NCBI RefSeq assembly: GCF_002860325.1
Contig: NZ_PKOJ01000001.1
Span: 1-64,000 of the forward strand
DNA: 64,000 bases
Direction of reading: 5' to 3'
Origin: Neptunicoccus cionae
GTDB taxonomy: Bacteria > Pseudomonadota > Alphaproteobacteria > Rhodobacterales > Rhodobacteraceae
This document shows positions 53,238-58,808 of the stretch, in pieces (within the stretch, counting starts at the first letter, position 1; each line of letters opens with the position of its first letter). The translations under genes were made by a program, and so were the position numbers. Below the pieces are notes generated by a model, which saw only the letters and a program-made list of their open reading frames with translations, did not search any database and was not told where the DNA came from.

Positions 53238-54107
53238 ATGTCTGTGAAATTGGAAATGCTCCGCACTTTTGCGACCGTGGCCGCCCAGGGCACTTTGTCG
53301 GGTGCCGCAACAGTACTGGGGCGCACGCCATCGGCTATTTCCATGACGCTGGCCCAGTTCGAACAGGAGGTCGGCGCGCCCCTGTTTGAAACCGACCGCA
53401 AGAGTCGCCTTACACCGCTTGGACAACTGGTGCTGGAAGAATCACATCGCGCTATCGACACTTTTGACAAAAGCGTCGATGCGATCCGCCGCCATGCGCT
53501 CTCTACTGCAGGAATTGTAAGGATTGCCGCCGTTCCTTCTGCCACCGTGGCGCTGCTGCCTGATGTGATCGATGCCTTTCGCAAGGCGCGCCCGAACGTG
53601 CGTATTGAAATCAGTGATGTAGACAGCGCAGCGGTGCGCGCCCGCCTTCATCGGGACGAGGCCGACATTGGTATTGTCTCTGCAAGGCCCGGCGACCCGC
53701 TAGAGGGCGTGCGCATCCTGTCTGACGACCTTGGAATCGTCTGTGCCGCAGGGGGTGCGATCCATCAGGCCCATCTCGACTCCGAAGGGCCTTCGGACTG
53801 GGGGCTGCTGCGCCTTGAGCCGCTGATCTTGAACCCCCTGTGTGAATTGGTGGAAGATGAAACCGTCGACGCCCTCGGCGTGGCCAGCGTGCTGGAGGCC
53901 CGCAACACCACAGCCATCCTCTCTTTCGTCAGGCGCGGTTTTGGTGCAAGCATCCTGCCGTTTGATGCTGTGCGCAACCAGCCTGACGGCGTGGAGTTCT
54001 TTGTACCCTCCGGTTCCCTGAGCCAGCGCGAACTGCGAAAGATCAAACAGGAACCGGACAGTTTACGCGGTCCGGCACTGGAATTCTGGACCCTTCTTAA
54101 TCGATAA
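53238..54107 (+). CDS. LysR-family regulator of the BCCT/M19 cluster
   Basis: A 289-residue LysR protein. The winged helix lies at about residues 1-60 (TLSGAATVLGRTPSAISMTLAQFEQEVGAPLFETDR), and the effector domain starts near residue 90 with VRIAAVPSATVALLPDVIDAFRKARPNV. It diverges from the aldehyde dehydrogenase across 90 bases, the usual layout for an activator of the adjacent operon. Its effector is presumably the unknown substrate or an intermediate. Confidence 0.88.
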   Translation: MSVKLEMLRTFATVAAQGTLSGAATVLGRTPSAISMTLAQFEQEVGAPLFETDRKSRLTPLGQLVLEESHRAIDTFDKSVDAIRRHALSTAGIVRIAAVPSATVALLPDVIDAFRKARPNVRIEISDVDSAAVRARLHRDEADIGIVSARPGDPLEGVRILSDDLGIVCAAGGAIHQAHLDSEGPSDWGLLRLEPLILNPLCELVEDETVDALGVASVLEARNTTAILSFVRRGFGASILPFDAVRNQPDGVEFFVPSGSLSQRELRKIKQEPDSLRGPALEFWTLLNR

Positions 54108-54344: not shown

Positions 54345-55151
54345 ATGTCCAAAATCGAACGCTGTGCTGTGAAAGTCACCGGTACGGGCGAGACTGCTCT
54401 CGTTTTTCTCCACGGCTACGGATGTGACAGCAGCATGTGGCGCAAGGTTGCCCCCGCCTTTGAATCGCGCTTCAAAGTCATCACTTACGATCTGATGGGC
54501 TATGGCCAGTCCGCAATCGAACATTACGACCGCGCCCGCTATTCCACGCTCGACGGACATGCCGAGGATCTGATCGATATCCTCGACGAACTGGATCTGA
54601 GCGATGTAATTGCTGTGGGCCACTCTGTCAGCGCTATGACCGTTGCTCTGGCCGCGAACCGACGCCCCGACCTGATCGCAAAAACCGTCATGATCTGCCC
54701 GTCCCCGAGCTATATGAACGACGAAGCTTACACAGGCGGATTTGAGGAAAGTGACCTGCTTGGCCTGCTCGACATTCTCGAAGTCAATTACCTCGGCTGG
54801 GCCGCCGATATGGCCCCTGCAATCATGGGCGCGCCCGACCGTCCCGGTCTCGGGGATAAACTGACCGAAAGCTTCTGCCAGACGGATCCCGACATCGCGA
54901 AACACTTTGCAAGAGTGACGTTTCTGAGCGATCATCGTGAAGATGTAAAAAAGATTGCCCAGCCGACCCTCGTTCTTCAGTGCCGCGACGACATTCTCGT
55001 GCCTGACACAGTGCGCGCGTGGTTTGACGCGAACCTTCAGCGGGGCGAGCAGGTTCTGCTGGATGCCACGGGACACTGTCCGCACATGAGCTTTCCTGAA
55101 CAAACCATCGCTGCGATCTCTGCTTTCCTGAAACCGGCTCCCCTGCGATGA
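54345..55151 (+). CDS. RsbQ/KAI2/D14-type alpha/beta hydrolase, probable signal-sensing protein
   Basis: A 268-residue alpha/beta hydrolase of the RsbQ type. The catalytic triad is Ser94 (VGHSVSAM), Asp216 (CRDDILVP) and His244 (TGHCPHMS). The HCPHMS segment and overall length match Bacillus RsbQ and the plant receptors KAI2 and D14 rather than metabolic esterases. In Bacillus, RsbQ is needed for the PAS phosphatase RsbP to sense energy stress. Here the next gene, overlapping by ATGA, encodes a PAS sensor kinase, so the pair probably works as a sensing module. The ATG at 54345 has GGGGGA seven bases upstream. Confidence 0.9.
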   Translation: MSKIERCAVKVTGTGETALVFLHGYGCDSSMWRKVAPAFESRFKVITYDLMGYGQSAIEHYDRARYSTLDGHAEDLIDILDELDLSDVIAVGHSVSAMTVALAANRRPDLIAKTVMICPSPSYMNDEAYTGGFEESDLLGLLDILEVNYLGWAADMAPAIMGAPDRPGLGDKLTESFCQTDPDIAKHFARVTFLSDHREDVKKIAQPTLVLQCRDDILVPDTVRAWFDANLQRGEQVLLDATGHCPHMSFPEQTIAAISAFLKPAPLR

Positions 55152-56500
55152 ACTCGGAAATCCGGTCTTTGTCCGATCTTGATCTCTGGCCCGGAGGCCT
55201 TCTGGTGATTGACAGCGGAGGCTTGATCACCAAAACAAATGCAACCCTCCGGGACTGGTTGAAGCAGGATGACAACAATCCTGACACTTCGACCCGTCTG
55301 GTCGATATTCTGACACCCGCAAGCCGGATTTTTTTTGAAACACATCTCCGCCCGATCCTTGTCTTTGAAGGAGAATTTTCGGAAGTCTCTCTGGAACTCG
55401 TCCGACGCGACGGCAGCCGGTTCGGCGTTTACGTAAACGGCCGTGCGGTCCGGCCCGACGGACAGATGACCGAGGCGTATTTCTGCATTTTCAAAAACGA
55501 ACAACGCCAGTCGTTTGAACGGGAGTTGGTACAACGGAGACGTGAAAGCGACGAGTTCCGGATACTCGTGGAATCCTCACCCCACGCAATCGTCTCATCA
55601 GACAAGTCGTTCAAGATCCACGCATGGAACCCTGCCGCGGAACAGCTTTTCGGCTATTCCAAGGAAGAAGTCTTGGGCCGGAGGTTTGATCACCTTCTTG
55701 TGCCGCCAGAAGAACTGGACGAACTCAAGACCAAAGTGCCCGATGTGATTGCCGGCGAGGTTTTGCGCAGCGAATCCGTCCGGCTTCATAGAGACGGCCG
55801 TGCACTTCATGTAGAGCGGAGCTTTGCGGCCATCAGGGACGAAAACCAGTCCCACACCGGCTTTGTCACCATGTACAGTGACATTGCCCAACGCAAGGAA
55901 TCCGAAGATCGCATCAAGACCCTTCTGCACGAGATCAACCACCGCTCAAAGAACCTGCTGACCATCGTAGAGGTGATCGCACGCCAGACCGCAAGGCGCT
56001 ATCAGGGGGATGCTTTTCTTGCCACCTTCTCCAACCGGCTACGCAGTCTGGCCTCCAATCAGGATATTCTGCTGAACAGCGGCAGCATCCATGTTGATCT
56101 TGATGCATTGGCACGGGCCCAGTTAACCCATCTCGTCGACGTGTCCGATGCGCAGGTAAATATCGCAGGGCCGACAGTGCACCTTAATGAATCCGTCTCA
56201 CAAGCTGTGGGTATGGCAATCTTCGAACTGGTTACAAACGCTGCGAAATATGGCGCCCTTTCACAGGAAAGTGGCAAAGTCGATCTGACATGGGAAATCA
56301 CCGGAGATGACACCCCTACCCTGAAAATCTGCTGGCTTGAATCCGGCGGCCCCGCTGTTTCGCCGCCGACGCGCACAGGCTTTGGCTCACAGGTAACGGG
56401 GCTCTTGCTGGAAAGCACCACTTCCGGAGAAACACATCACGATTTCGCAGCAGAGGGATTGCGATGGAGCTTCAGCGCACCAATGGACCAGATGACCTGA
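55148..56500 (+). CDS. PAS-PAS sensor histidine kinase of the HWE family
   Basis: A 450-residue soluble kinase. An N-terminal PAS-like domain spans about residues 10-120 and a second PAS about 135-250 (SSPHAIVSSDKSFKIHAWNPAAEQLFGYS). A linker ending in SDIAQRKESE leads to the kinase. The phosphorylated His265 is in HEINHRSKNL, the N-box is FELVTNAAKYGAL (Asn364), and the family-defining W-x-E is Trp396/Glu398 in CWLESGG. HWE kinases in alphaproteobacteria often serve stress or light responses. No response regulator is adjacent. It is translationally coupled to the RsbQ-like hydrolase, which probably signals through the first PAS. Confidence 0.9.
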   Translation: MNSEIRSLSDLDLWPGGLLVIDSGGLITKTNATLRDWLKQDDNNPDTSTRLVDILTPASRIFFETHLRPILVFEGEFSEVSLELVRRDGSRFGVYVNGRAVRPDGQMTEAYFCIFKNEQRQSFERELVQRRRESDEFRILVESSPHAIVSSDKSFKIHAWNPAAEQLFGYSKEEVLGRRFDHLLVPPEELDELKTKVPDVIAGEVLRSESVRLHRDGRALHVERSFAAIRDENQSHTGFVTMYSDIAQRKESEDRIKTLLHEINHRSKNLLTIVEVIARQTARRYQGDAFLATFSNRLRSLASNQDILLNSGSIHVDLDALARAQLTHLVDVSDAQVNIAGPTVHLNESVSQAVGMAIFELVTNAAKYGALSQESGKVDLTWEITGDDTPTLKICWLESGGPAVSPPTRTGFGSQVTGLLLESTTSGETHHDFAAEGLRWSFSAPMDQMT

Positions 56501-56600: not shown

Positions 56601-56858
56601 ATGGGTATCACAAGCGTCTTTGTCCTTTTGATCGTCGGCGCGGTTGCAGGTTGGCTGGCCGGTAAAATTGTCAAAGGATCCGGCTTTGGCCTGATCGGGA
56701 ATATTGTGATCGGTATCCTTGGCGCTTTCATCGCGACTTTGCTCTTGCCCGCCATCGGACTGCCGGTCGGGGGCGGAATGCTCGGCTCTATCATCAGCGC
56801 CACAATTGGCGCTGTGATCCTGCTGTTCCTGCTGCAACTTCTTAAACGGGGCGGCTAA
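56601..56858 (+). CDS. GlsB/YeaQ/YmgE-family small membrane stress protein
   Basis: An 85-residue protein made almost wholly of three membrane helices. The glycine-rich pattern VGAVAGWLAGKIVKGSGFGLIGNIVIGILGA is characteristic of the transglycosylase-associated (YeaQ/YmgE) family. Its role is unclear, but members are often induced by general stress. AAAGGAAAG precedes the ATG. It lies 100 bases after the sensor kinase. Its stop codon directly abuts the convergent DUF4198 gene. Confidence 0.88.
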   Translation: MGITSVFVLLIVGAVAGWLAGKIVKGSGFGLIGNIVIGILGAFIATLLLPAIGLPVGGGMLGSIISATIGAVILLFLLQLLKRGG

Positions 56859-57647
56859 TCAGCGCCCAAACGTCATAGAGGCCCAGAAACTCTCGTAAAA
56901 CGGCGTATCTTTGGCTTCGGGTCGCGCGATATGAACCGCGTTGAGCAAGACAAAGCCGCTTTCGGGCACGTCCACCTCGGCAAATCCGGCCTTATCCGTG
57001 TGTACCCGTGCGGTGGTCACTTCGGCTTCTTTGATAAACACATTAATCGGATAGTCCGCCACCGGCTCCCCCTGCCAGAGCAGTTGCACCCGAACCCTCT
57101 CTGTATCCGGCGCATAGGGCGAGCCTTCAACGACCAATTCGAACGGCAGGCCAAGCGCCTGATCTTCACCCCCGTCATACGGTCCAACCTGCACCAGAGC
57201 CTTTGCATTGCGGGTGTATGTTTCGGTAATGTCGATCTCTGGCCAACCGTTTTCGCGGTGCGCCTCAAGCACAAAATCAAGACCCTCGGCCTTTAGGTAT
57301 TTCTCCAGAAGTTCGGGATCACGATAGGTCAAACGGTTCGCGTTGGAATGATAGGCAAGGATGTTCAAACCCGCCACAGGCTCTGCCACTTGCAAGGCCG
57401 GGCTGTCCCCGACAATTCCTTTGTGATCCAAAGTCCCCTGACTGTTCGTAATAGTAAAGGACTGGAATTGCGCAGGAATGTAAGGAAATGTGGACCCTTT
57501 TAATTCGGACCCCACCTTGAGAAAGGCCATCATTCGTCCGTCCGGTGCCACGGTAAAATCCAGCGGCTCGATCCAGTATTCATGCGCCAGCAATGGACCC
57601 GACAATCCAAATGCCATAGATACGAAACACGCCTTCAACCAATTCAT
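56859..57647 (-). CDS. DUF4198-family exported protein, possibly metal-related
   Basis: A 262-residue protein with a signal peptide ending in PLLAHEYW; HEYWIEP at the mature N-terminus is typical of DUF4198. The rest looks like beta-sandwich domains. Proteins of this family often accompany nickel/cobalt uptake genes, and the neighbour here is HupE/UreJ-like, which supports a periplasmic metal-binding or delivery role (inference). GAGGGG precedes the ATG. Its start lies only 15 bases from the divergent hupE start, so its ribosome site overlaps the start of the other gene. Confidence 0.83.
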   Translation of the reverse strand: MNWLKACFVSMAFGLSGPLLAHEYWIEPLDFTVAPDGRMMAFLKVGSELKGSTFPYIPAQFQSFTITNSQGTLDHKGIVGDSPALQVAEPVAGLNILAYHSNANRLTYRDPELLEKYLKAEGLDFVLEAHRENGWPEIDITETYTRNAKALVQVGPYDGGEDQALGLPFELVVEGSPYAPDTERVRVQLLWQGEPVADYPINVFIKEAEVTTARVHTDKAGFAEVDVPESGFVLLNAVHIARPEAKDTPFYESFWASMTFGR

Positions 57648-57662
57648 AACAGAAATCCCCTC

Positions 57663-58808
57663 ATGACCTTTCATAAATCATATAGCGCGATGCTTCTCTT
57701 AGCCACGCTTGCCGCATTTATTATCTCGCACTCGCCTTCGCGCGCCCATGAAGCCACGCCTTCAATCATCAATATGGCTTTGAACGGCACCGAGGTGACA
57801 CTATCAATCGACACGAACCTCGAAGCACTGGTTGCGGGTGTGGCAGACGAAACCAATACCGAAAACGATGCAGAAGGAGAGAAAGAATATCTCCGCCTGC
57901 GGGAAACCGCGCCTTCCGAACTCTCTCAGGACTATGCCGAAATGCGTCCGACGTTCGACCCGACACTCGGACTTTCCCTTGACGGAACGCCTGTAGAGCT
58001 CCGCTATCTGGACCACTCCATTCCACCGGTCGGGGATCCCGATATAGCGCGGATATCGACCCTGACCTACAGTGCAACCCTTCCCGCTGCATCCGGCACG
58101 CTGACATGGGACTTCCCGTCAGACTACGGGGACAGTGTGCTGCGGGTCTTCCTGCCTGATACTGTTGACCCTGTGATCGCGGATTACGTGGCAAGCGGTG
58201 CGACAGCCTCCGTGGATCTCGACAACATCGCCCCGCAAACTACCGGAGAGGTCGTATGGGATTATATCGTGGCGGGTTTTGACCACATCATCCCCAAAGG
58301 GCTCGACCATATCCTGTTCGTGATCGGGCTGTTCCTGCTCTCGGCCCACCTGCGCCCGCTTTTGATGCAGGTTACGATGTTCACGCTGGCCCATACGATC
58401 ACACTGGCGCTCGGCGCGCTCGGATATGTGAATGTGCCCGGCAACATCGTTGAACCGCTGATCGCCGCCTCTATCGTCTTTGTCGCGGTAGAAAACATCT
58501 TCACCGAAAAACTCACCGCATGGCGACCATTCCTCATCTTCGGTTTCGGTCTGCTGCACGGGCTCGGCTTTGCATCTGTACTGGGCGATTTCGGCCTGCC
58601 AACGGCACAATTCATCCCCGCGCTGATCGCCTTTAACATCGGTGTGGAAATCGGCCAGCTTGCCGTAATCGCCGTCTGTTTCCTTTCGGTTGGCATCTGG
58701 TTCCGCAACAAACCGTGGTATCACAGCAGCATCGTTGTTCCCGCCTCGGCCGCCATCGCAATCATGGCCGCCTATTGGGTACTGGAGCGCACCGGTTTTA
58801 TCGCCTGA
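57663..58808 (+). CDS. HupE/UreJ-family membrane protein, probable nickel/cobalt permease
   Basis: A 381-residue protein. A signal peptide (about residues 1-30, ending in SRAHE) is followed by a periplasmic beta-rich domain of about 165 residues. A C-terminal HupE/UreJ domain has about six membrane helices with the histidine motif GFDHIIPKGLDHILFVIGL near 210 and FTLAHTITLALG near 245, plus LLHGLGFASVL near 305. HupE/UreJ proteins transport nickel or cobalt. The ribosome site is weak. The initiator ATG at 57663 could be replaced by ATG 57690, but this would shorten the signal peptide. Confidence 0.85.
   Translation: MTFHKSYSAMLLLATLAAFIISHSPSRAHEATPSIINMALNGTEVTLSIDTNLEALVAGVADETNTENDAEGEKEYLRLRETAPSELSQDYAEMRPTFDPTLGLSLDGTPVELRYLDHSIPPVGDPDIARISTLTYSATLPAASGTLTWDFPSDYGDSVLRVFLPDTVDPVIADYVASGATASVDLDNIAPQTTGEVVWDYIVAGFDHIIPKGLDHILFVIGLFLLSAHLRPLLMQVTMFTLAHTITLALGALGYVNVPGNIVEPLIAASIVFVAVENIFTEKLTAWRPFLIFGFGLLHGLGFASVLGDFGLPTAQFIPALIAFNIGVEIGQLAVIAVCFLSVGIWFRNKPWYHSSIVVPASAAIAIMAAYWVLERTGFIA

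Follow-up and report, generated by a model that had tools for sequence, protein, structure and literature searches.

An RsbQ-PAS sensing module joined to an HWE histidine kinase in Neptunicoccus cionae, and its possible wiring to the general stress response

The DNA considered in this study (the window, 64,000 nt from Neptunicoccus cionae, family Rhodobacteraceae) carries a gene for an RsbQ-type hydrolase directly followed by a gene for a histidine kinase with two PAS domains and an HWE core. The two very probably constitute an RsbQ-PAS bipartite sensing module. Granted the module, whether PhyR is the target of the kinase is in my judgment evenly balanced, and the full proposal, that the module controls an orphan HWE kinase which would phosphorylate PhyR, falls just short of an even chance. 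The observation is sound and the module has already been described; its wiring to stress signalling is a good hypothesis, about as apt to prove right as wrong. The features of the region are as follows.

53238..54107, + strand: LysR-type regulator, upstream of the pair (Pfam)
54345..55151, + strand: RsbQ-type alpha/beta hydrolase, 268 aa (open reading frame)
54624-54626, 54990-54992 and 55074-55076, + strand: hydrolase triad Ser94, Asp216 and His244
55148..55151, + strand: ATGA overlap of hydrolase stop and kinase start (sequence)
55148..56500, + strand: PAS-PAS-HWE histidine kinase, 450 aa (open reading frame)
55169..55495, + strand: PAS1, RsbP-PAS type, kinase residues 8-116 (homology, profile, model)
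55553..55900, + strand: PAS2, a PAS of non-RsbP type, residues 136-251 (Pfam, profile)
55931..56173, + strand: HWE_HK domain, residues 262-342 (Pfam PF07536, E 5e-17)
56174..56491, + strand: ATP-binding domain, residues 343-448, limits set in this analysis (Asn364, W396-x-E398)
56601..56858, + strand: small protein, Pfam Transgly_assoc, downstream of the pair

The core idea is known, since a 2011 paper already presents an RsbQ-PAS module whose outputs include histidine kinases. In the available sections of that paper, Nadezhdin, Brody and Price (PLoS One 2011, PMC3183031) describe 45 cases in which an RsbQ hydrolase gene adjoins a gene for a protein with an RsbP-type PAS domain. That domain is followed in the same protein by one of three outputs: phosphatase, histidine kinase or diguanylate cyclase. 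Five of the 45 have extra PAS domains, and these are among the proteins that have no coiled-coil between RsbP-PAS and output. The same sections name B. subtilis as the one organism in which the module has a known target, and call the trigger of RsbQ signalling mysterious. The Gram-negative RsbQ-PAS histidine kinases of that study share the arrangement and the kinase output of the window, but their subclass is not named in those sections and the term HWE does not appear in the main text. The open-licence literature yielded no publication joining RsbQ and HWE, and nothing on point, judged by title among the 12 of 439 matches listed, for RsbQ with a histidine kinase in alphaproteobacteria; the four other papers that use the title phrase of the 2011 study concern Bacillus (by title) or RsbU/RsbT (by abstract). 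Four points did not turn up in print in these searches: that the kinase is of the HWE subclass, that such kinases were probably recruited twice, that the pair co-occurs with the stress switch, and the short list of receivers.

Both open reading frames bear out the preliminary description of two genes overlapping by ATGA, an arrangement from which I infer translational coupling. Among 32 partnered loci, the partner start picked as nearest to the hydrolase stop is no more than 14 bases away from it in 30 (the picking itself favours closeness), and the partner genes of L021 and L025 overlap by more than 14 bases. Homologues of the LysR and Transgly_assoc genes adjoin the pair only in the closest relatives, L016 and L017. 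A wider conserved neighbourhood is therefore rejected, the pair itself being the conserved unit, and the LysR-type regulator probably lies outside the sensing system. Also beside the pair, at window positions 56859-58808, a DUF4198-like gene (− strand) and a HupE/UreJ-like gene (+ strand), both named by eye, are divergent and overlap, an arrangement kept as well in L016 and L017.

Judged by its residues and relatives, the hydrolase is of the RsbQ type. The best match among solved structures is RsbQ of B. subtilis (E 4.7e-84), followed by Olei00960 (1.8e-63) and then by the alpha/beta-hydrolase 7ukb and the plant proteins KAI2 and D14 (about 1e-51 to 1e-43). The triad residues are those first claimed, and the triad together with the two gating phenylalanines (F133 and F193 in the window hydrolase) is kept in 32 of 32 partnered RsbQ proteins; Tyr25 occupies the position of F27 in RsbQ. 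KAI2 and D14 are hydrolases that act as receptors, signalling through F-box proteins, and they are homologous to the window hydrolase but more distant from it (about E 1e-51, as against 5e-84 for RsbQ). The HCPHMS segment had been ascribed to both RsbQ and the plant receptors. The ascription holds for B. subtilis RsbQ, but the two KAI2 sequences compared have HLPQLS, and a literal KAI2/D14 reading of the segment is rejected.

The presence of two PAS domains in the kinase was also upheld, PAS2 by Pfam and PAS1 by other means: among the Pfam PAS models whose best stretch lies in the first 130 kinase residues, none reaches E 0.1. PAS1 aligns with 28 homologous N-terminal domains, several of which Pfam does call PAS, and its AlphaFold2 model (pLDDT 84.6) is matched by Foldseek to PAS structures, for example FixL (1d06, E 1.2e-7). 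Its residues L55, F62, H66, P69 and E79 have the spacing of the signature L48-F55-Y59-P62-E72 of RsbP (numbering as in the available text of PMC3183031). Across the 29 aligned PAS1 sequences (alignment A1), P69 is found in 28 and E79 in 25, position 66 is His or Tyr in 25, and position 62 is Phe or Tyr in 22. Two residues of the class, C10 and P86, are replaced in the window by G16 and G93 (the P86 position taken from the offset). Neither is invariant in the class: A1 has Cys at the former position in 24 of 29 sequences and Pro at the latter in 17 of 29, and the sections seen of PMC3183031 give the cysteine in 80% and report that C10A has only a modest effect. PAS1 ends in AYFCIFKNEQRQ, which by eye contains no DIT motif, whereas PAS2 ends in a DIT-like SDIA (SDIAQRK, by eye).

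The window pair has most of the traits that define the RsbQ-PAS module, namely rsbQ immediately upstream, an N-terminal PAS1 as first domain, the five signature residues and no DIT after PAS1, all of which it shares with RsbQ-RsbP of B. subtilis. The difference lies in what follows: where B. subtilis has a PPM phosphatase that works on the partner switch of sigma-B, the window has PAS2 and then an HWE kinase. The full HWE core reported earlier is present residue for residue, with the phospho-acceptor His265 in EINHRSKN (an HRxKN H-box), the N-box Asn364 and Trp396-x-Glu398, and the HWE_HK domain is recognized by Pfam. No membrane segment was seen by eye in the kinase. In a model of low confidence (pTM 0.38), residues 117-129 form a helix that runs into PAS2, and a further helix, 247-284, runs into the kinase.

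In order to assess how far the pairing extends, RsbQ was sought in 394 genomes of the family, scoring the best 6 candidates per genome with a threshold of E 1e-40. Matches were found in 17, and in all 17 RsbQ is directly followed by a gene for an RsbP-PAS protein, which places the pair beyond chance. Of these partners, 9 are HWE kinases, 6 belong to the HisKA class, including two hybrids, and 2 are GGDEF proteins. For L022, L024 and L026 the output class was assigned from a motif. Among 385 genomes of the class Alphaproteobacteria, 11 gave RsbQ matches: the 6 with at least 40% identity have an RsbP-PAS partner, the 5 with 32-37% do not. Relatives identified by title include Neptunicoccus sediminis (86%), Jannaschia helgolandensis (72%), Pseudorhodobacter (71%), Pseudomonas and several actinobacteria. 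Adjacency of RsbQ and an RsbP-PAS protein extends across this family, other families of its class, Pseudomonas and actinobacteria. The preliminary description, which treated the RsbQ sensor and the PAS-HWE kinase as a unit, had named a lack of conservation beyond close relatives among the findings that would refute it; the loci found run counter to that, and the unit is supported. HWE outputs, among the loci examined, occur inside the family only, and a search of 101 relatives of genome G531 for further HWE pairs gave three positives, all already known. The distribution is also patchy, since a genome of the same genus (G502) gave no RsbQ match.

These counts bear on the proposal that the hydrolase serves metabolism as an esterase and shares no more than a transcript with a kinase to which it is unrelated. 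Alpha/beta hydrolases are common, and the distant relatives at L067-L069 (32-36% identity) have, by eye, no adjacent kinase or GGDEF gene. Adjacency to one type of PAS in 17 of 17 genomes, across different outputs and while the neighbours change, makes that proposal very improbable. The distances among RsbQ proteins and among PAS1 domains also agree (r 0.82), a correlation against it that shared descent alone could produce.

The preliminary description had asked whether the first PAS is conserved only in partnered kinases. A search of the 394 family genomes with the A1 profile (best 10 candidates per genome scored, threshold E 1e-12) gave matches in 20. Seventeen have RsbQ and score 107 to 175 bits, scores that are high by construction, A1 containing all 17 family members. 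The other 3 (51 to 68 bits) have no RsbQ homologue within the 8 kb around each, so the restriction holds for most matches and fails for these weaker ones. Since A1 includes the family, a second profile was made from nine partnered PAS1 domains, all from outside it. By this measure the window PAS1 scores 87 bits and its PAS2 22; PAS1 domains of the family range from 59 to 164 bits, PAS2 domains reach at most 22, and four unpartnered matches give 44 to 63, with an overlap in that the partnered PAS1 of L058 (59.5 bits) falls below the unpartnered L085 (63.1 bits). The scores and the unpartnered matches together tie this PAS type to RsbQ with few exceptions and indicate that PAS1, not PAS2, belongs to the module.

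One of the three unpartnered matches in the 394 genomes, L084:4144-5094, is an RsbP-PAS-like protein of 316 aa.

How the module might work is suggested by analogy. The contact between RsbQ and PAS in B. subtilis depends on F55 (PMC3183031, sections seen), and carrying that published contact over, RsbQ would bind the F-alpha face of PAS1. A ligand held or cut in the RsbQ pocket may alter the contact, and the change would then run through the helix after PAS1, through PAS2 (acting as a relay or taking an input of its own) and through the DHp helix to set autophosphorylation of His265, upward or downward. The partial text of PMC10359499 describes two PAS-HWE kinases with monomer and dimer forms of different activity, a difference that offers a possible route for RsbQ binding to act.

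The sensing step may be otherwise arranged. In Model 1 of PMC3183031, as given in the sections seen, the hydrolase converts a precursor and the product is passed to the PAS1 pocket, which senses gas, redox state or light. This would leave the kinase output unchanged and overlaps the other readings. Such a role fits the finding that all 32 partners keep the whole triad and the gating Phe residues, as well as the null phenotypes of B. subtilis RsbQ triad mutants (cited in the part of PMC3183031 seen) and a predicted PAS1 fold near those of heme and flavin PAS domains. Closeness to heme PAS folds is common among PAS domains, however, and at the position from which other PAS domains bind heme, which is C56 in RsbP (PMC3183031, same sections), the window PAS1 has Phe (F63). 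Moreover, as regards the hydrolysis of a small lipophilic signal that the preliminary description suggested, one model retained in those sections needs only binding by RsbQ and no catalysis. On balance I consider this conversion and hand-over less likely than not.

What the kinase phosphorylates is a separate question. With the HWE_HK model alone, the genome has three matches: this kinase, one in the general stress locus and a third on contig C14. The window kinase looks like an orphan. The stress locus lies 70-74 kb downstream of the pair and has the complete PhyR-NepR-EcfG set:

G000:C1:126777-130133 (L071:6778-10134): general stress locus, with an HWE/HisKA_2-type PhyK-like kinase, EcfG, NepR and PhyR

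NepR was identified there by Pfam, EcfG and PhyR were named from their sequences, and a receiver match falls at the place of PhyR. In Sphingomonas and Caulobacter, published work supports PhyR as a usual end point of HWE/HisKA2 kinases, reached directly or via a FATGUY regulator (PMC5964349, PMC12148442, available parts of both): the available text of PMC5964349 has most HWE/HisKA2 kinases of Sphingomonas melonis converging on PhyR, and MrrA of Caulobacter phosphorylated by at least 6 kinases. The LOV/PAS-HWE kinases of PhyR-NepR-EcfG systems (RT-HK, PMC12148442; PMC5964349) resemble the window kinase in class and in the presence of PhyR, but differ in that the portions available mention no RsbQ partner. 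Should the window kinase behave likewise, its phosphate would pass to PhyR, which would take NepR off EcfG and so switch on the general stress response.

PhyR is also favoured by the receivers of the genome and by the occurrence of NepR. Among 43 receiver matches in the genome, every one of them covered by the loci read, a simple FATGUY-like motif occurs only in PhyR and in one hybrid protein, so that by this motif PhyR is the sole stand-alone receiver of the FATGUY type. Of 12 genomes that contain an HWE pair, 11 have NepR (the exception is 77% complete), as do 6 of the 8 whose RsbQ pair has another output and 35 of 78 that lack RsbQ, these last being the first in the list rather than a random draw. 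The excess in HWE-pair over RsbQ-negative genomes gives a one-sided Fisher p of 0.002, or of 0.007 (9 of 10) when the near relatives (the window, L016 and L017) are collapsed. However, the HWE and the non-HWE pairs show no clear difference (p 0.34), which weakens the case for the kinase class as the source of the excess, and with NepR in 6 of 8 of the non-HWE genomes the association could be a matter of lineage, of habitat or of how large the genome is. The link of the pair to stress signalling, by NepR co-occurrence and by the PhyR locus in the genome, is circumstantial.

The same module and HWE kinase could instead serve an output other than the general stress response, for example through a single unrelated regulator or through the hybrid protein just mentioned (G000:C10:621458-622255; L144, L147), which has two receivers; a PVVFATGG motif in the second of them resembles that of FATGUY regulators. 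In sister genomes the module drives HisKA kinases, hybrids and GGDEF/EAL proteins, and no phyR stands beside the pair in the loci read. Set against the NepR excess and the singular position of PhyR, these facts leave another output a serious contender, somewhat below an even chance.

Neighbouring genes and promoters were searched for a direct connection. Scanned with a home-built receiver profile over flanks that reach about 6 kb at most, and less far for L019/L045 and L050, the surroundings of the 12 HWE pairs gave no receiver gene except one weak match at the edge of L046, and a receiver gene next to the HWE pairs is rejected. Homologues of PhyR or EcfG were likewise absent from the loci read around the pairs. 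Between lysR and rsbQ, no GGAAC-type EcfG box lies on the strand of the pair, so an EcfG-type promoter before it is rejected as well; L070 has a relaxed match between these genes on the opposite strand (L070:9107-9128). These absences count against PhyR as the target, although control by EcfG does not strictly define the kinases of the general stress response. The window holds 5 strict matches to the box against 2.4 expected, one of them within the kinase gene on the opposite strand, and such counts are near chance, being reached by 11 of 100 shuffles for the window and 92 of 200 for L070. In the stress locus, two overlapping GGAAC-CGTT boxes, on both strands, lie between nepR and phyR (L071:9263-9294); the overall count there is 16 where 10.4 would be expected, not much more than chance gives.

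The history of the HWE output was examined in two trees, L028 being left out of both. The tree of HWE cores contains 35, of which 11 are linked to RsbQ and 24 are unlinked (by position, and for the L018 genome without a search for a second RsbQ); it uses 11 of the 12 HWE pairs, L060 being omitted since its H-box was missed by the pattern. The linked cores form two separate groups, united in 0% of 200 bootstrap trees. In the sensor tree, built from RsbQ and PAS1 of 32 pairs (L064 labelled HisKA, where Pfam gives only ATPase domains), the HWE label needs two changes, and one change suffices in 6% of bootstrap trees, while the starred branches are compatible with one HWE origin. A single origin of the HWE output is rejected on these bootstrap values, and the simplest reading would be that the module recruited HWE kinases on two occasions.

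It is conceivable, though I would wager against it, that RsbQ and RsbP-PAS were wired independently into the partner switches of two unrelated general stress responses, that of sigma-B in Bacillus by way of a phosphatase and that of PhyR-NepR-EcfG in alphaproteobacteria by way of two separate recruitments of HWE kinases. If this were true, the RsbQ signal would be a stress cue common to very distant bacteria. The genome that carries the kinase pair has three HWE_HK matches and a single clear candidate for the receiver, and so offers a small system in which signal, contact and output may each be assayed, one that also bears on the workings of bacterial proteins related to the karrikin and strigolactone receptors.

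RsbQ-like hydrolases that are more distant relatives (36-37% identity, with HFPH or HLPH replacing HCPH) were encountered at L065:4725-7073 and L066:4656-6998, where they directly precede a PAS-HisKA kinase and a PAS-GGDEF protein. The N-terminal 140 or so residues of these partners are not RsbP-PAS and appear GAF-like by eye; the two loci possibly represent a second kind of hydrolase-sensor pairing.
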